Below are positions 4,716 through 33,744 of a stretch of 64,000 nucleotides of DNA, piece after piece. The DNA is from Streptomyces sp. NBC_01304 (GTDB lineage Bacteria > Actinomycetota > Actinomycetes > Streptomycetales > Streptomycetaceae). The stretch is taken from assembly GCF_035975855.1 (NCBI RefSeq), contig NZ_CP109055.1, positions 6,696,001 to 6,760,000 of the forward strand, given 5' to 3'. The number at the start of each line of letters is the position of its first letter. Position 1 is the stretch's first letter. The translations under genes were made by a program, and so were the position numbers. The notes under the pieces were generated by a model. The model saw only the letters and a list, made by a program, of their open reading frames with translations, searched no databases and was not told the DNA's origin.

Positions 4716-6362
4716 GTGCGGCCGGTAGGCAGCAAGTATCTGCTCGAGGAGCCGCTCGGACGCGGCGCCACGGGCACCGTCTGGCGAGCCCGCCAGCGCG
4801 AGACCGCGGGCGCCGAGGCCGCCGTGGCCGGGCAGCCCGGCGAGACCGTCGCCATCAAGGTCCTCAAGGAGGAGCTGGCGAACGACCCGGACGTCGTGAT
4901 GCGCTTCCTGCGCGAACGCTCGGTCCTGCTGCGCCTGACCCACCAGAACATCGTGCGCACCCGCGACCTGGTCGTCGAGGGCGACCTCCTGGCGCTCGTC
5001 ATGGACCTGGTCGACGGCCCGGACCTGCACCACTACATCCGGGACAACGGGCCGATGACGCCCGTCGCCGCCTCCCTGATGACCGCCCAGATCGCCGACG
5101 CCCTCGCCGCGAGCCACGCGGACGGCGTCGTACACCGCGACCTGAAGCCCGCGAACGTCCTCCTGAAGGACGAGGGCGGTCAGCTCCACCCGCTGCTCAC
5201 CGACTTCGGCATCGCGCGCCTCGCCGACTCCCCGGGCCTGACCCGGACCCATGAATTCGTCGGTACGCCCGCGTACGTCGCACCCGAGTCCGCCGAGGGC
5301 CGGCCGCAGACCTCCGCCGTCGACATCTACGGCGCGGGCATCCTGCTGTACGAACTGGTCACCGGGCGCCCGCCGTTCGCGGGCGGCACCGCCCTCGAGG
5401 TGCTGCACCGGCACCTCAGCGAGGAGCCGCAGCGCCCGTCCACCGTGCCCCAGCCGCTGTGGACGGTCATCGAGCGCTGCCTGCGCAAGAACCCGGACGA
5501 ACGCCCCAGCGCGGAGAACCTCGCGCGCGGGCTGCGCACCGTCGCCGACGGCGTCGGGGTGCACGCGAACTCCGCCCAGATCGCCGCGGCCGAGGGCGTC
5601 GGCGCCCTGCTCGCCCCCGACCCGGCCCCGGCCACCGTCCCGGGCACCCCGGGCGCGGCCGACCCCACCCAGGTACTGCCGAGCAACGCTGGCTCGTACG
5701 ACCCGGGCGCCGCGACGAACGTCATGCCGCACACCGGTCACGCCGATCCCACCGCGGTCATGCCGCCCGTCCCGCCGAACCAGCCGGGCCAGGGCCCCCA
5801 GGACGAGCACCCGTGGCAGAACCAGATGCGCGCGGCTCGCGACCGCAACGAGCAGACCCAGGTCCAGTACCTGGACCCCAACCAGGACCCGCTGCGCCGC
5901 CGCCCCCAGCGTCAGGTCAACCGCCCGCAGCAGGCCCCGCGCCAGCCGCAGCAGCAGGGCGGCTACGGCTATCCCCAGCAGCAGGCGGGCTACGGCTACC
6001 CCCAGCAGCAGCAACCCCAGCAGCACCAGCCGCAGCGCTACGCCCCGGCCCCGCAGCCCCAGCAGCAGCCACAGCACTACGCGCCCCCGCAGGCCCCGCC
6101 GCCCCAGCAGCCTAGGCCGCCGCGCGAGCCGCGGCGCAGCAACCCGAACCGGATGCGGATCCCGGGCCTCGGCTGCCTCAAGGGCTGCCTGTTCACGGTC
6201 GTCATCCTGATCGTGGCCAGCTGGCTGATCTGGGAGCTGAGCCCGCTGCAGGACTGGATCGGGCAGGGCAAGGGCTACTGGGAGCAGATCTCGGACTGGG
6301 TCGGCACGGTGTCCGGCTGGGTCGGGGACCTCGGCGGAGACTCGGGCGGCGGCTCGCAGTAG
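4716..6362 (+). CDS. pkaA: Membrane-anchored Ser/Thr protein kinase (PkaA-type)
   Basis: 548 aa from the GTG at 4716, chosen because GGGAG lies 8-12 bases upstream and the protein then begins directly with the kinase domain (KYLLEEPLGRGATGTVW). All catalytic motifs are present: the Gly-rich loop, VAIKVL, HRDLKPANVLL, DFGIARL and a P+1 segment ending APESAEGRP. After about residue 290 comes a long low-complexity linker rich in Gln, Pro, Gly and Tyr, with repeats such as GYGYPQQQ. A single transmembrane helix follows (about 489-507) with a short outside tail. Size and position match S. coelicolor PkaA next to PkaB. A TACAGT -10-like box lies at 4616-4621. Substrates are unknown; the FHA-FtsK protein encoded divergently is a plausible reader. 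Confidence 0.9.
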   Translation: MRPVGSKYLLEEPLGRGATGTVWRARQRETAGAEAAVAGQPGETVAIKVLKEELANDPDVVMRFLRERSVLLRLTHQNIVRTRDLVVEGDLLALVMDLVDGPDLHHYIRDNGPMTPVAASLMTAQIADALAASHADGVVHRDLKPANVLLKDEGGQLHPLLTDFGIARLADSPGLTRTHEFVGTPAYVAPESAEGRPQTSAVDIYGAGILLYELVTGRPPFAGGTALEVLHRHLSEEPQRPSTVPQPLWTVIERCLRKNPDERPSAENLARGLRTVADGVGVHANSAQIAAAEGVGALLAPDPAPATVPGTPGAADPTQVLPSNAGSYDPGAATNVMPHTGHADPTAVMPPVPPNQPGQGPQDEHPWQNQMRAARDRNEQTQVQYLDPNQDPLRRRPQRQVNRPQQAPRQPQQQGGYGYPQQQAGYGYPQQQQPQQHQPQRYAPAPQPQQQPQHYAPPQAPPPQQPRPPREPRRSNPNRMRIPGLGCLKGCLFTVVILIVASWLIWELSPLQDWIGQGKGYWEQISDWVGTVSGWVGDLGGDSGGGSQ

Positions 6363-27995: not shown

Positions 27996-28568
27996 GTGCG
28001 CAAGGATTCCGCTGTGGCCGACGACCGCCCGCCGCGAGCCCGACATCGGGGTCAACCGGCGGAGCCCGACGAGGAGTTGATGCGCGCGCTCTACCGGGAG
28101 CACGCGGGTCCACTGCTCGCCTATGTGCTGCGCCTGGTGGCGGGCGACCGGCAGCGGGCCGAGGACGTCGTACAGGAAACGCTGATCAGGGCGTGGAAGA
28201 ACGCGGGGCAGCTGAATCGCGCCACTGGCTCGGTCCGGCCCTGGTTGGTGACAGTGGCGCGGCGTATCGTCATCGACGGCCACCGCAGCCGGCAGGCCCG
28301 GCCGCAGGAGGTCGACCCGTCACCACTGGAGGTCATCCCCGCGGAGGACGAGATCGACAAGGCGCTGTGGCTGATGACTCTTTCCGACGCTCTCGAGGAC
28401 CTGACTCCCGCGCACCGGGAGGTACTTGTCGAGACGTACTTCAAAGGGCGTACCGTCAATGAGGCGGCCGAAGCCCTCGGCATACCCAGCGGGACGGTCC
28501 GCTCCCGGGTGTTCTACGCCCTGCGCTCCATGAAACTGGCCCTGGAAGAGCGGGGGGTGACGGCATGA
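27996..28568 (+). CDS. sigU: ECF RNA polymerase sigma factor (SigU)
   Basis: 190 aa from the GTG at 27996, fixed by GGAGG 5 bases upstream; in-frame GTG 27960 would skip this site. Region 2 is seen as LMRALYREHAGPLLAYVLRL and RAEDVVQETLIRAWKN, followed by WLVTVARRIVIDGHR. Region 4 is the helix-turn-helix TVNEAAEALGIPSGTVRSRV. ECF factors recruit RNA polymerase to a small stress regulon, often outside the membrane barrier. The next gene, overlapping by 4 bp (ATGA), encodes its zinc-type anti-sigma factor. Position before helD and malic enzyme matches S. coelicolor sigU (SCO2954) as remembered. Confidence 0.88.
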   Translation: MRKDSAVADDRPPRARHRGQPAEPDEELMRALYREHAGPLLAYVLRLVAGDRQRAEDVVQETLIRAWKNAGQLNRATGSVRPWLVTVARRIVIDGHRSRQARPQEVDPSPLEVIPAEDEIDKALWLMTLSDALEDLTPAHREVLVETYFKGRTVNEAAEALGIPSGTVRSRVFYALRSMKLALEERGVTA

Positions 28569-29353
28569 CCGCGTACGACACGAACAGTGGCGCACCCGAC
28601 ATGGAAGCCATGCACGAGACGGTCGGCGCCTACGCCCTGGGCATCCTGGACGACGCGGAGGCCACCGCCTTCGAGGCGCACCTGGCCGAGTGCGACTTCT
28701 GCCAGGTCCAGCTGGAGGAGCTGGCCGGCATGGAGCCGATGCTGGCCGCCCTCGCGGACATGCCCGAGCAGCGCGGGCCTGAGGTGGGGAACCAGCTCTC
28801 GGCCAAGCCCAGCGACAAGCTGCTCGGCAATCTCGTGGACGAGGTCGCCGAGAAGCGCGCCCAAAAGCGCCGGCGGTCCTTCTACCTGGTGGCGGCAGCG
28901 GCGGCCCTGATCATCGGCGGCCCGCTCACGGTCATGGCGGTGACCGGCGGGAGCGACAGCACGGGAACCCCGTCGGCGCACTCCACCAGCCCCGCCCAGG
29001 ACGCGTTCTTCCACCACATGGAGGAGAAGGTCGAGGCGACCGACGCGAAGACCGACGTCACCGCGACCGTCGGCCTGGAGAAGAAGGCCTGGGGCACCCA
29101 CACGGTCCTGGAACTCAAGAACGTCAAGGGCCCGCTCAAGTGCTCCCTCATCGCCGTGGGCAAGAACGGCAAGGAGGAGACGGTCACCTCCTGGTCAGTC
29201 CCGAAGTGGGGCTACGGCATCGAGGACAGCCCGAACAAATGGGCCCGCACCCCGCTCTACGTGCACGGCGGCGCCGCGATGGACCGCGCCGACATCGACC
29301 ACTTCGAGGTCCGCACCTTCGACGGCAAGCGGCTGGTGGAGGTGAAGGCGTGA
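28565..29353 (+). CDS. rsuA: Anti-sigma factor RsuA (ZAS family)
   Basis: 262 aa. The N-terminal cytoplasmic anti-sigma domain carries the zinc motif H-x3-C-x2-C (HLAECDFCQ, about residues 38-46) after HETVGAYALGILDDAEA. One transmembrane helix (about 104-124, SFYLVAAAAALIIGGPLTVM) leads to an outside domain of about 130 residues, with WGTHTVLELKNVKGPLKCSL and WGYGIEDSPNKW, resembling anti-sigma-K C-terminal-like domains. It would hold SigU inactive at the membrane until an envelope signal removes it. Translationally coupled to sigU. Confidence 0.9.
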   Translation: MTAYDTNSGAPDMEAMHETVGAYALGILDDAEATAFEAHLAECDFCQVQLEELAGMEPMLAALADMPEQRGPEVGNQLSAKPSDKLLGNLVDEVAEKRAQKRRRSFYLVAAAAALIIGGPLTVMAVTGGSDSTGTPSAHSTSPAQDAFFHHMEEKVEATDAKTDVTATVGLEKKAWGTHTVLELKNVKGPLKCSLIAVGKNGKEETVTSWSVPKWGYGIEDSPNKWARTPLYVHGGAAMDRADIDHFEVRTFDGKRLVEVKA

Positions 29354-29457
29354 GATTTTGTGCCCGTCCGGTGAAGGTGAACAGGTAAGAAGCGTGCACC
29401 CACCGGCCCCCTTCGCGTACCGTGGACGGCTGCTCAGCACGTCAGAAGGGGGCCTCG

Positions 29458-31845
29458 GTGGCCGCGCAGGAAGCCGCTGTCGAATCCGTCGGATCCGCGG
29501 TCGAGTCCCAGGTGGATTCGGTACGCGACCAGGAGATCGGCATCGAGCAGGACCACCTTGACCGGGTGTACCGGCGGCTCGAGGAGAAGATCCACGAGGC
29601 CGAGTTCCTGATGCACGACGCCGCCCAGCGCGGCCAGGTCGGCACCCCCGGCGCGCTCGCCGAGCGGGACGCGCAGGTCTTCCGCGCCGGGATCCACCTC
29701 AACCGCCTCAACAGCGAGTTCGAGGACTTCCTGTTCGGCCGCATCGACCTGCTCCTCGGCAAGGACGGCAAGAAGGGCCCGGACGGCGCGTACACGTCGA
29801 TCGACCCGGCCGACGACGCGATCCGCACCGAAGGCACCCACAGCGAAGCCGACATCGCGGAGACCCTGCACATCGGCCGCATCGGAGTCCTGGACGAGGA
29901 CTACGCGCCGCTGGTCATCGACTGGCGCGCCCCGGCCGCCGCGCCGTTCTACCGGTCGACGCCGGTCGATCCCGGCCGGGTGGTACGCCGCCGGGTGATC
30001 CGCTCCAAGGGCCGCAAGGTCCTCGGTGTCGAGGACGACCTGATGCGCCCCGAGCTGCGCGCCTTCCTCGGCGGGGCCGAGCTCCCGGTGATCGGCGACG
30101 GCGCCCTGATGGCCGCGCTCGGCCAGGCCCGCAGCCACACCATGCGGGACATCGTGGCGTCCATCCAGGCCGAGCAGGACCTGGTCATCCGGGCCCCCGC
30201 CGCCTCCGTCACGTACGTCGAGGGCGGGCCCGGCACCGGCAAGACGGCGGTCGCGCTGCACCGGGCCGCGTATCTGCTCTACCAGGACCGCCGCAGGTAC
30301 GCGGGCGGCATCCTCATCGTCTCTCCCACGCCCCTGCTGGTGGCGTACACCGAAGGCGTGCTGCCCTCCCTCGGCGAGGAGGGACAGGTCGCGATCCGCG
30401 CGGTCGGCTCGCTGGTGGACGGGGCCGAGGCGACGCTGTACGACGAGCCCTCGGTGGCCCGCGTCAAGGGCTCCTCGCGCATGCTCAAGGTGCTGCGCAA
30501 GGCGGCCCGGGGCGTGCTCGAAGGCACCCGCCCGGGCGGTCCGCCGCGCCAGGAGGGCCAGTTGGCCTTCGGCGAGGAACCGCAGGCCGCCGCCGGCCCG
30601 CCGACCCGCCTCCGCGTGGTCGCCTTCGGGCGCCGCCTGGAGCTGGAGTACGACGCCCTTCAGCGCATCCGGAACAACGCCCTCGGCGGCACCTCACCGG
30701 TCAACCACCTGCGCCCGCGCGCCCGTCGGCTGCTCCTGGACGCCCTGTGGTCCCAGTCCGGCGCGGCCGGCCGGCACACCGACCCGGAGCTGGCCGCCGA
30801 GCTGCGCTCGTCCTTCGACGAGGACATCACCTCCGAGGACCCGTTCATCGAGTTCCTCGACGCCTGGTGGCCCGAGCTGACCCCGCGCCGGGTCCTCGAA
30901 GCCATGGCCGACGAGAAGCGCCTGGGCCGCTGGGCCCGCCGCGTCCTCAACCCCGGCGAGGTCCGCCGGGTCGCGCGCTCGCTCAAGCGCGCGGGCCTGT
31001 CCGTGCACGACGTGGCCATGCTCGACGAGCTGCAGATGATCCTCGGCACCCCGGCCCGCCCCAAGAAGAAGCGCGAGCTCGACCCGCTGGACCAGCTCAC
31101 CGGCCTCGAAGAGCTGATGCCGACCCGCGAGGAGACCCAGCGCGAGCGCGCCGAACGCCTCGCCCAGGAGCGCGTCGAGTACGCGCACGTCATCGTCGAC
31201 GAGGCGCAGGACCTGACCCCCATGCAGTGGCGCATGGTCGGCCGCCGTGGCCGGACCGCCACCTGGACCGTCGTCGGCGACCCGGCCCAGTCCTCCTGGT
31301 CCGACCCGGACGAGGCGGCCGCGGCCCGCGACGAGGCGCTCGGCACCCGCCCGCGCCGCCGCTTCGAGCTGACGGTCAACTACCGCAATCCGTCCGAGAT
31401 CGCGGAGCTCGCGGCGAAGGTCCTGGCCCTCGCCATGCCCGGCTCCCCGTCCCCGAAGGCGGTCCGCTCGACGGGCATCGAGCCCCGGTTCGCCGTCGTA
31501 CGGGGCAGGGATCTGGCGGGGACGGTCCGCGCGGAGGCGCAGCGCCTGCTCGACCAGGTCGACGGCACGGTCGGCGTGGTCGTGGCGATGCGCCGCCGGG
31601 GCGAGGCGGCCCGCTGGCTCGCGGAGCTGGGCGAGCGCGTGGTGGCGCTCGGCAGCCTGGAGGCCAAGGGCCTGGAGTACGACGCGACGGTGGTGGTCTC
31701 CCCGGCGGAGATCGCCGACGAGTCCCCGGCGGGGCTGCGCGTCCTGTACGTCGCCCTCACCCGGGCCACCCAGCAGCTCACGGTGATCTCGACGGACCGT
31801 GACGACCCGGACGGGGCCGGAGTGCCGGACCTGCTGCGGGACTGA
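29458..31845 (+). CDS. helD: RNA polymerase recycling motor HelD (UvrD/Rep-like ATPase)
   Basis: 795 aa from the GTG at 29458, with AGAAGGGGG upstream; an ATG at 29422 before this site is rejected. The N-terminal Glu/Gln-rich helical arm (LDRVYRRLEEKIHEAEFLMH) fits the HelD insertion into the RNA polymerase secondary channel. Superfamily-1 motifs follow: Walker A EGGPGTGKTAVALH (about 256), DEAQDLTP (about 581), GDPAQSSW, LTVNYRNPSEI, AKGLEYDATVVV and LYVALTRATQQL. HelD frees stalled RNA polymerase from DNA; some actinobacterial relatives give rifamycin protection. Its placement beside sigU-rsuA may link polymerase recycling to sigma switching. Confidence 0.9.
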   Translation: MAAQEAAVESVGSAVESQVDSVRDQEIGIEQDHLDRVYRRLEEKIHEAEFLMHDAAQRGQVGTPGALAERDAQVFRAGIHLNRLNSEFEDFLFGRIDLLLGKDGKKGPDGAYTSIDPADDAIRTEGTHSEADIAETLHIGRIGVLDEDYAPLVIDWRAPAAAPFYRSTPVDPGRVVRRRVIRSKGRKVLGVEDDLMRPELRAFLGGAELPVIGDGALMAALGQARSHTMRDIVASIQAEQDLVIRAPAASVTYVEGGPGTGKTAVALHRAAYLLYQDRRRYAGGILIVSPTPLLVAYTEGVLPSLGEEGQVAIRAVGSLVDGAEATLYDEPSVARVKGSSRMLKVLRKAARGVLEGTRPGGPPRQEGQLAFGEEPQAAAGPPTRLRVVAFGRRLELEYDALQRIRNNALGGTSPVNHLRPRARRLLLDALWSQSGAAGRHTDPELAAELRSSFDEDITSEDPFIEFLDAWWPELTPRRVLEAMADEKRLGRWARRVLNPGEVRRVARSLKRAGLSVHDVAMLDELQMILGTPARPKKKRELDPLDQLTGLEELMPTREETQRERAERLAQERVEYAHVIVDEAQDLTPMQWRMVGRRGRTATWTVVGDPAQSSWSDPDEAAAARDEALGTRPRRRFELTVNYRNPSEIAELAAKVLALAMPGSPSPKAVRSTGIEPRFAVVRGRDLAGTVRAEAQRLLDQVDGTVGVVVAMRRRGEAARWLAELGERVVALGSLEAKGLEYDATVVVSPAEIADESPAGLRVLYVALTRATQQLTVISTDRDDPDGAGVPDLLRD

Positions 31846-31945: not shown

Positions 31946-31972
31946 ACTTCGAAGAGTCCTGCGGGACGGGAA

Positions 31973-32000
31973 TTGCCTTACGGGGATCGTTTGTTACCTT
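31973..32000 (+). promoter_or_regulatory. Promoter of the structured RNA
   Basis: TTGCCT (31973-31978) and TACCTT (31995-32000) are 16 bp apart. The expected start, about 32007, coincides with the first base of the closing stem of the RNA that follows. Confidence 0.5.
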
Positions 32001-32006
32001 GGATGT

Positions 32007-32143
32007 GACACCGGCTCGATCCAAGCCCCCGGGCCCAACCTTCGTCGCTTAGAGCGACCACTTGCCGCGAGGCGAGCATGGCGGGTCGGTGTCGCTTAAC
32101 TTCCGTAAGAGGCCCACGTCACATGGTGACGTGGGCCTCTTAC
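32007..32143 (+). ncRNA. Candidate structured RNA (sRNA or riboswitch) upstream of malic enzyme
   Basis: The 468-bp gap between helD and the malic enzyme holds a compact fold. Stem P1 pairs GACACCGGCTCG (32007-32018) with CGGGTCGGTGTC (32082-32093), 12 bp with two wobbles. It encloses hairpin P2 GTCGCT-TAG-AGCGAC (32044-32058) and hairpin P3 CTTGCC-GCGA-GGCGAG (32061-32076, a GNRA loop). A C-rich strand lies at 32021-32040. An 18-bp terminator hairpin follows at 32105-32143. Promoter, fold and terminator together suggest an independent RNA of about 140 nt, or a leader that ends transcription before the malic-enzyme gene. I do not match it to a family I know. Confidence 0.55.
32105..32143 (+). 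terminator. 18-bp perfect hairpin terminator
   Basis: GTAAGAGGCCCACGTCAC pairs perfectly with GTGACGTGGGCCTCTTAC around an ATG loop. Followed by GTGTCCCC rather than a T-run. Confidence 0.8.
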
Positions 32144-32210
32144 GTGTCCCCTGCAAGGGGTTCCGCTGTGCGAGCACTTCTCGTATGGTGGAAGTCGTTT
32201 TCCGAAAAGC

Positions 32211-32313: not shown

Positions 32314-33744
32314 ATGGCTACGGCGCCCAGCGTCTCCTACTCGATGACGGTCCGCCTTGAGGTGCCCGCCAGCGGAACAGCGGTCTCGCAGCTCACCACG
32401 GCGGTCGAGTCCTCCGGCGGCTCGGTCACCGGCCTCGACGTCACCGCGTCCGGCCACGAGAAGCTCCGGATCGACGTCACCATCGCCGCGACCTCCACCG
32501 CGCACGCCGACGAGATCGTCGAGGAGCTGCGCACCATCGAGGGCGTCACGCTCGGCAAGGTCTCCGACCGTACGTTCCTGATGCACCTCGGCGGCAAGAT
32601 CGAGATGCAGGCGAAGCACCCGATCCGCAACCGTGACGACCTCTCGATGATCTACACCCCGGGCGTCGCCCGCGTGTGCATGGCGATCGCCGAGAACCCC
32701 GAGGACGCCCGCCGCCTCACCATCAAGCGCAACACCGTCGCGGTCGTCACGGACGGCTCCGCGGTGCTCGGCCTCGGCAACATCGGCCCGATGGCCGCCA
32801 TGCCGGTCATGGAGGGCAAGGCGGCCCTCTTCAAGCGCTTCGCCGACATCGACGCCTGGCCGATCTGCCTGGACACCCAGGACACCGACGAGATCGTGTC
32901 GATCGTCAAGGCCATCGCCCCCGGCTTCGCGGGCATCAACCTCGAGGACATCTCGGCGCCCCGCTGCTTCGAGATCGAGGCGCGCCTGCGCGAGGCCCTG
33001 GACATCCCGGTCTTCCACGACGACCAGCACGGCACGGCCATCGTGGTGCTCGCCGCGCTGACCAACGCCCTGCGCGTGGTCGGCAAGTCCATCGGTGACG
33101 TCCGCGTCGTCATGTCGGGCGCCGGCGCCGCCGGTACGGCCATCCTGAAGCTGCTGCTCGCGGCCGGCGTCAAGAACGCCGTGGTGGCCGACATCCACGG
33201 CGTCGTGCAGTGCGACCGCGCGGATCTCGTGGACGCCGCCGCGGACTCCCCGCTGCGCTGGATCGCCGACAACACCAACCCCGAGGGCCTCACCGGCACC
33301 CTCAAGGAGGCCGTGGTCGGCGCCGACGTCTTCATCGGCGTCTCTGCTCCGAACGTGCTGAACGGCGACGACGTCGCGGCCATGGCGGACGACGCGATCG
33401 TGTTCGCGCTCGCGAACCCGGACCCCGAGGTCGACCCGTCGATCGCCCGCCAGACGGCCGGAGTTGTGGCCACTGGCCGCTCGGACTTCCCCAACCAGAT
33501 CAACAACGTCCTGGTCTTCCCGGGCGTCTTCCGCGGTCTGCTCGACGCCCAGTCGCGCACCGTCAACACGGAGATGATGCTGGCCGCGGCGAGCGCTCTC
33601 GCGGACGTCGTGTCCGAGGACGAGCTGAACCCGAACTACATCATCCCCAGCGTCTTCAACGACAAGGTCGCGGGCGCGGTGGCGGGCGCGGTGCGCAATG
33701 CCGCGAAGGCCGCCGCCGCCACTGTGACCGGAACCACGGCCTGA
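32314..33744 (+). CDS. NAD(P)-dependent malic enzyme with N-terminal ACT domain
   Basis: 476 aa from the ATG at 32314, preceded by AGAGGAAG. Residues about 8-80 form an ACT domain ([19 protein letters not shown]), a small-molecule sensing fold. The catalytic part has [43 protein letters not shown] with the metal-binding aspartates, and the Rossmann motif [11 protein letters not shown]. It decarboxylates malate to pyruvate, giving NADH or NADPH; cofactor choice cannot be read with certainty. It connects the TCA cycle with pyruvate-derived lipid and polyketide building blocks. The long leader with a dyad and an upstream structured RNA suggests layered control. Confidence 0.93.

Follow-up and report, generated by a model that had tools for sequence, protein, structure and literature searches.

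A structured RNA upstream of the malic enzyme gene in Streptomyces belongs to a class-wide RNA family of Actinomycetes, with a SigR/SigH-type promoter in many lineages

The window, i.e., the whole stretch of DNA analysed in this study, comprises 64,000 nucleotides of Streptomyces sp. NBC_01304. The locus of interest lies between a gene for a HelD/HelR-like RNA polymerase recycling ATPase and a gene for a malic enzyme, and it contains a promoter region, the conserved core of a structured RNA, and a terminator-like hairpin (Table 1). An anti-sigma-factor-like gene (28565-29353; 52.6 bits, below the cut-off of 100) precedes the HelD/HelR-like gene, and an HU-like gene comes next after the malic enzyme gene. 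An inverted repeat sits between the RNA terminator and the malic enzyme gene. Since a similar GAAC...CGTTC is present in two other loci (L010 and L013), this repeat is probably an operator, putatively that of the malic enzyme promoter.

Table 1. Features of the RNA locus, in positions of the window
Feature	Position	Strand	Basis or remark
HelD/HelR-like RNA polymerase recycling ATPase gene	29422-31845	+	motor_HelR_2 (NCBIfam), 349.7 bits, below the curated 1100
GGAAT, SigR/SigH-type -35	31969-31973	+	11/14 aligned Streptomyces loci; register test, 229 copies
GTT, SigR/SigH-type -10	31993-31995	+	19 nt after GGAAT, 11 nt before the RNA
TACCTT, housekeeping-type -10, overlapping	31995-32000	+	TANNNT in 58/58 Streptomyces copies
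Conserved RNA core, 87 nt	32007-32093	+	Fold; two models (R1, R2); 65/65 Streptomyces genomes
P1 closing stem, 5' arm	32007-32018	+	12 pairs with 32082-32093
C-rich segment GCCCCCGGGCCCAACCTTC	32025-32043	+	Possible 3-bp mini-hairpin inside
P2 hairpin GYCGCU-NNG-AGCGRC	32044-32058	+	Inner pairs invariant
P3 hairpin, GNGA (GNRA-type) loop	32061-32076	+	Inner pairs invariant
P1 closing stem, 3' arm	32082-32093	+	Fold and covariation
Terminator-like hairpin, 19 bp, weak T-run	32104-32144	+	Fold: 32104-32122 with 32126-32144
Inverted repeat TTGAGAAC-N5-GTTCTCAA	32211-32231		Perfect 8-bp arms; outside the RNA
Malic enzyme gene	32314-33744	+	NCBIfam NADP-dependent malic enzyme, 373.8 bits, below the curated 1178

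The predicted fold of the 144-nt stretch had an energy of -81.5 kcal/mol, against a mean of -50.9 kcal/mol for shuffled sequences (z = -7.45), and none of 200 shuffles equalled it. The reverse strand likewise folds beyond its shuffles (z = -4.93). An initial annotation of the window, made from the sequence alone, had described a 12-bp closing stem around two hairpins, one with a GCGA tetraloop. Both elements were recovered in the fold, as the 12 pairs of P1 and as P2 and P3, the loop of P3 being GCGA (32067-32070). A small third hairpin is predicted at 32025-32034 within the C-rich segment, the 3' portion of which is largely unpaired in the predicted fold of the window RNA. The annotated 18-bp hairpin at 32105-32143 is also present, but in the fold it is the 19-bp hairpin of Table 1. 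It is followed by three T among the next nine bases. A hairpin below -15 kcal/mol lies behind the core in 29 of 30 Streptomyces loci, and at least four T within nine bases after the hairpin were counted in 7 of the 30. Among 43 copies, mostly from outside the genus, a clear terminator (hairpin below -10 kcal/mol and at least three T of eight) was found in 12. By such simple rules, a terminator is not general across copies.

The core was found by blastn in all 37 Streptomyces genomes searched and in none of 24 others. Model R1 was built from 30 Streptomyces sequences and model R2 from 101 sequences, and a model match was obtained in 65/65 Streptomyces genomes. Of 394 genomes sampled evenly across the class, R1 matched 197 (60 of 137 genera) and R2 matched 230 (74 of 137 genera; 40 of the 230 genomes were Streptomyces), leaving 164 without a match; most of the 230 have one match each. 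The matches to R2 in a sample of the phylum numbered 22 in 296 genomes, all 22 within the class; hence, the model is clade-specific. Matches were weak in the same order outside the genus (6 of 15 genomes). A scan of named genomes with a short pattern limited to P2 and P3 returned at least 119 stretches, an uneven sample because the pattern fixes the linker and excludes the Streptomyces loop. The whole model was matched in 118 of these; in the remaining one (L138), where the end of the stretch cuts the copy, model positions 29-87 were matched. Judged by name, all 119 titles among the matches listed are actinobacterial, and the genera include Cellulomonas, Brevibacterium, Arthrobacter, Nocardia, Mycobacterium, Microbacterium, Nocardioides, Geodermatophilus, Kribbella, and others. 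Neither the window nor 14 other loci contained a match to an Rfam 15 family at the gathering score, so a known Rfam family was rejected, in agreement with the initial annotation, which had matched the RNA to no named family. When the Rfam thresholds were relaxed for the window and L088, no match came close to a cut-off; the two weak ones in the window lay far under theirs. With this fold, the RNA forms a family that spans the class Actinomycetes. This class-wide status is new here, and no Rfam 15 model matches the fold in the loci scanned.

A relative of about 108-112 nt with an extended P2 region, termed type II, was recognised in four loci (L244, L245, L246, and L247). In 22 of the 65 Streptomyces genomes, type II comes up as the second match, some of these matches being marginal (E up to 0.009), and for some relatives of the order it is the sole match. 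Copies in tandem were seen at 3901-4069 of L229 (Nocardia abscessus) and at 4890-5157 of L081. With one copy as the query, blastn found 63 places in 52 plasmid records of Rhodococcus and Gordonia (20 rows among the matches listed), and at least 80% of the query was covered in 21 of the 52 records. One plasmid record holds five matching places. The copy at 3984-4052 of L003, on the Rhodococcus plasmid pRB98, apparently misses part of its 5' half and adjoins an IS30 transposase gene. Some Rhodococcus plasmid copies (L103, L105, and L106, near 5001-5104) lie near genes for nucleoid proteins and DNA ligase, with mihF beside L103 and L106 and Lsr2 beside all three. A contig of a viral collection carries a full copy close to its end (L230, 12458-12540). 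A phage origin was rejected, the evidence bearing on it being this contig, of phage or host DNA, and two 22-base matches to phage records (E 0.08).

Pairing was evaluated on 99 distinct sequences. Paired bases filled 92.8% of cells, and 415 cells showed double changes, against a mean of 122 after shuffling. The covariation score was 0.407, against 0.142 for shuffled alignments and at most 0.071 for slid controls. The pairs showing a double change numbered 21 against 18.2 after shuffling, a value attained by 4 of 500 shuffles; the remaining four of the five covariation measures were reached by none of the 500, and every slid version scored lower. Fitting to the model, as done for alignments A3 to A6, biases them towards its structure; the model had no part in alignment A2. 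P1 showed double changes at 12 of 12 pairs, with 96.5% of cells paired. P2 had 98.7% of cells paired, and its three inner pairs were identical in 99/99 sequences, as were the two inner pairs of P3. The two outer pairs of P3 failed in 52 and 27 of the 99 sequences, so that P3 amounts to about four pairs across the class. In the C-rich mini-hairpin, which is partly supported, 81.7% of cells were paired and one pair failed in 48/99; this pair and the outer pairs of P3 fail often and are therefore weakly supported. Within the genus, 30 copies with a mean column identity of 97% kept pairing in 690/690 cells, and two pairs of P2 were changed on both sides. Compensatory changes were thus present in the stems, and the structure drawn in the initial annotation stood.

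Conservation of sequence is distributed unevenly over the fold. In 96 sequences from outside the genus, five columns of the C-rich segment, forming the word C-C-C-n-G-G, were 92-98% conserved. In the G-N-G-A loop of P3, the second base alone varied (96 sequences). Among 43 copies obtained independently of the pattern, 42 shared one length of the linker between P2 and P3; the 43rd did not fit the expression used. On this pattern of conservation, P1 looks like a scaffold, and P2-linker-P3 looks like a recognised module.

The promoter region was then compared among copies. SigH of mycobacteria and corynebacteria recognises a motif almost identical to that of SigR in Streptomyces. The SigR consensus is given as GGAAT-N18-19-GTT in the accessible text of PMC9205884. 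The sequence TTTGTTA was found in all 14 aligned Streptomyces loci (16 on the other strand were left out). GGAA[CT]-N17-19-GTT, ending 6-13 nt upstream of the core, was found at 119 of 229 copies. In the intergenic sequence of these loci, it occurred at 60 of 202,384 positions, a rate about 1,700 times lower. The 229 include related, non-independent copies, the 43 loci in which the motif was first spotted, and L138, which is without upstream sequence and was counted as a miss. L048 and L060, whose genomes were already counted, and L001, which repeats the window, were left out of the set. With slightly wider rules, the motif was present in 33 of 11,450 random windows. The motif, with a spacing of 19 nt in the window and 17-19 nt in the 119 copies, matches the promoter consensus of the SigR/SigH regulon, and the commonest register, a 19-nt spacing with 11 nt to the core, was seen in 31 copies. 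By group, the motif preceded 53 of 58 Streptomyces copies, 18 of 41 diverse copies, 42 of 120 named copies among the matches listed, and 6 of 10 plasmid or viral copies. The initial annotation had proposed TTGCCT-16-TACCTT as the promoter. Its -10 box is conserved, since 58/58 Streptomyces copies have a TANNNT whose end lies 4-9 nt upstream of the core. Its sigma-70 -35 box is not conserved, a TTG-type -35 at a spacing of 15-19 nt being found in 11 of the 58.

The remaining 110 of the 229 copies are without a SigR-type motif. By the wider rules, 47 of the 120 named copies among the matches listed have the motif, 54 have a TANNNT box only, and 19 have neither. The motif was present in Microbacterium (15/15), Mycobacterium and Mycolicibacterium (6/6), Nocardia (11/13), and Rhodococcus (2/2). 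It was absent from Arthrobacter (0/4), Rothia (0/3), Brevibacterium (0/3), and Leifsonia (0/2), and from 8 of 12 Nocardioides copies. To judge from the upstream sequences, other clades presumably make the RNA from other promoter boxes. Seven genomes with two type I copies were fetched. The strict motif lay on one copy and TANNNT on the other in three of them (G384, G423, and G252; the motif of G252 was read by eye). Two further genomes (G337 and G078) have an imperfect motif on one copy and a TANNNT box on the other; G261 has the motif at both tandem copies, and G129 has one copy with the motif and one with neither box. Four type II promoters were read, of which two are GGAAC-N18-GTT and two are GGAAG-N16 or 18-GTT.

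In Streptomyces, the malic enzyme gene follows the RNA on the same strand in all 29 other loci, and HelD lies upstream in 28 of 29. Because the malic enzyme gene always follows, the genus alone cannot separate a leader from a neighbour. Outside the genus, malic enzyme or HelD was found in 0 of 159 loci. Around 171 copies outside the genus, the nearest downstream gene was on the same strand in 77, on the opposite strand in 79, and undecided or far in 15; genes were called by a home-made GC-frame heuristic, and close relatives weigh as separate loci in these counts (e.g., 15 Microbacterium). The neighbours outside the genus include genes for ApbE-like proteins, hydantoinase, a phosphate transporter, aldo-keto reductase, and WhiB-like proteins, and no constant functional neighbour emerged among 20 neighbours scanned by Pfam. 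A fixed site 5' of a same-strand target, as expected for a riboswitch, is therefore seen within the genus and not outside it. The initial annotation had offered two readings, an independent sRNA of about 140 nt or a riboswitch-like leader of the malic enzyme gene. The former is borne out by a promoter region of its own, the hairpin behind the core in nearly all Streptomyces loci, and neighbours that vary outside the genus; the latter loses ground to these neighbours and to the even orientation. The RNA is most likely an independent small RNA rather than a malic-enzyme leader.

The RNA was compared with the small RNAs known from actinobacteria. The 6C RNA of actinomycetes (Rfam family RF01066) is similarly an actinobacterial sRNA with conserved unpaired C-rich bases. 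It differs in having two stem-loops, each with at least six C, as described in the accessible text of PMC8388888, whereas one C-rich segment is present here; the 6C covariance model gave no match in the Rfam scans of the window and the other loci. Ms1 (scr3559), the 6S-type RNA that binds RNA polymerase (RNAP), is also a structured sRNA widespread in Actinobacteria, but in S. coelicolor it has a length of about 230 nt and a different locus (passages of PMC9130861), and the RNA studied here has no Rfam match. The accessible accounts of S. coelicolor RIP-seq name two RNAP-bound RNAs, the window RNA not being among them, and the reading as an RNAP-binding RNA found no support in these accounts. 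The RNA shares with the SigR regulon of Streptomyces the consensus cited above (PMC9205884). No class-wide RNA member of the SigR regulon or of the SigH regulons of mycobacteria and corynebacteria was found in the accessible regulon literature. The string 'SCO295' is absent from the main text of the RIViT-seq work on SigR. In the part of a C. glutamicum study that was available, SigH-type promoters are given at 44 start sites of an sRNA set.

The counterpart in S. coelicolor is very probably scr2952. In the available texts, the gap between sco3558 and sco3559 contains scr3559, and that between SCO0791 and SCO0792 contains scr0792; by this naming pattern, scr2952 should lie between SCO2951 and SCO2952. 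SCO2951 is a malic enzyme gene and SCO2952 a HelD gene, like the genes that flank the RNA in the window. The identity is derived from naming and gene order, not from coordinates. According to the accessible passage of PMC8388888, Vockenhuber et al. (2011) confirmed that 11 ncRNAs of S. coelicolor are expressed, scr2952 among them, and conservation of scr2952 extends to more than half of the Streptomyces tested. It is also said there to be in Rfam; the Rfam 15 scans performed here gave no match. The passage names homologues in S. ambofaciens, scr2952 not among them, and is silent on the fold, promoter type, and function of scr2952 and on its occurrence outside the genus. No function of scr2952 was found in the accessible literature, and the number 2952 is absent from the accessible main texts of the related literature beyond PMC8388888.

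Several explanations of the RNA have to be weighed. The main rival to the reading proposed below is a base-pairing sRNA in which the C-rich CCCCGG...CAA is a seed that blocks G-rich translation starts of several mRNAs and P2 and P3 serve for protection only. The C-rich segment is strongly conserved outside the genus and partly unpaired, as a seed would be, and another Streptomyces sRNA, scr5583, has a C-rich terminal loop in the accessible text of PMC3765725. However, in the cores of P2 and P3 the sequence itself does not vary (99/99 at five pairs) and the linker keeps one length (42/43), which is more than a pure seed RNA requires; we consider this explanation unlikely. Alternatively, the RNA may be a structured housekeeping RNA that is expressed constantly from the overlapping TANNNT box and has no more than an incidental link to SigR/SigH. 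Such a box accompanies all 58 Streptomyces copies, and of the 120 named copies among the matches listed, 54 have this box only and 19 have neither box. Against constant expression stand the register of GGAAY-N17-19-GTT, enriched about 1,700-fold over intergenic sequence and found in distant families too, the occurrence of GGAAC-N18-GTT in two of the four type II copies read (the other two having GGAAG), and the Nocardia (11/13) and mycobacterial (6/6) copies with a SigR-type motif and no TANNNT box. This second alternative appears rather improbable.

A riboswitch or attenuator acting in cis on the malic enzyme gene would account for the upstream site, kept in 29/29 Streptomyces loci, and for a terminator-like hairpin before the gene. 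It is disfavoured by the neighbours outside the genus, where malic enzyme is missing from all 159 loci, the orientation is even, and the downstream genes differ; in addition, the minimum-energy fold contains no competing structure, and the probability of this explanation is very small. The palindromic terminator and the plasmid copies would also fit a DNA repeat element, or the stretch might be a small coding ORF, instead of an RNA. Both are hardly credible in view of the pairing covariation, of the single match that most of the 230 genomes have, and of core lengths that fall within 78-90 nt, two of the 229 copies excepted, and do not change in multiples of three. The three frames are free of stops in 146, 175, and 178 of the 229 copies, and none is open in all of them; a small ORF was rejected on the core lengths and on these stops in every frame.

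The reading that we favour, with a probability of roughly two in three, is an independent, trans-acting structured sRNA of about 140 nt, with its core at 32007-32093 and its 3' end at about 32144, which is stress-induced through SigR/SigH in many lineages. The computations establish the fold, its covariation and spread, and the promoter of SigR/SigH type at a fixed register ahead of about half of the tested copies. SigR/SigH, an ECF sigma factor of disulfide and heat stress, would induce the RNA in Streptomyces, Nocardia, mycobacteria, Rhodococcus, Microbacterium, and others; we infer this induction from the promoter. In several of these lineages, the stress promoter would act on top of a housekeeping -10 box. 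Given that P1 drifts in sequence but stays paired, it probably does no more than hold the module together. More tentatively, and at somewhat less than even odds, the invariant P2-linker-P3 may be a structure bound by a conserved protein or ribosomal partner, with the C-rich segment contacting RNA or protein targets; for the partner, the conservation pattern alone was used.

The recurrence of the RNA with a stress-type promoter suggests a little-studied RNA arm of the oxidative and heat stress response. A broader and doubtful proposal is that the disulfide and heat stress response of Actinomycetes has a general non-coding arm. The compact RNA would work within a dedicated ribonucleoprotein whose protein binds at P2-P3; SigR/SigH would make it on stress, and in some two-copy genomes it would be paired with a housekeeping paralogue. 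Some bacteria carry two 6S RNAs, and a stress copy kept beside a housekeeping paralogue would resemble them. The accessible text of PMC4046766 states that Hfq is lacking in C. glutamicum and other Actinomycetales. If the proposal is true, these Hfq-less bacteria would contain an RNA-binding protein, so far unrecognised, as the partner of the RNA.

Actinobacteria include antibiotic producers and major pathogens, and a role is known for few Streptomyces sRNAs according to the passage available from PMC8388888. A strongly covarying RNA present in 74 of 137 sampled genera provides one defined RNA with which to ask how actinobacterial sRNAs work. Its model can be used by annotators, and the RNA may extend the SigR/SigH response.
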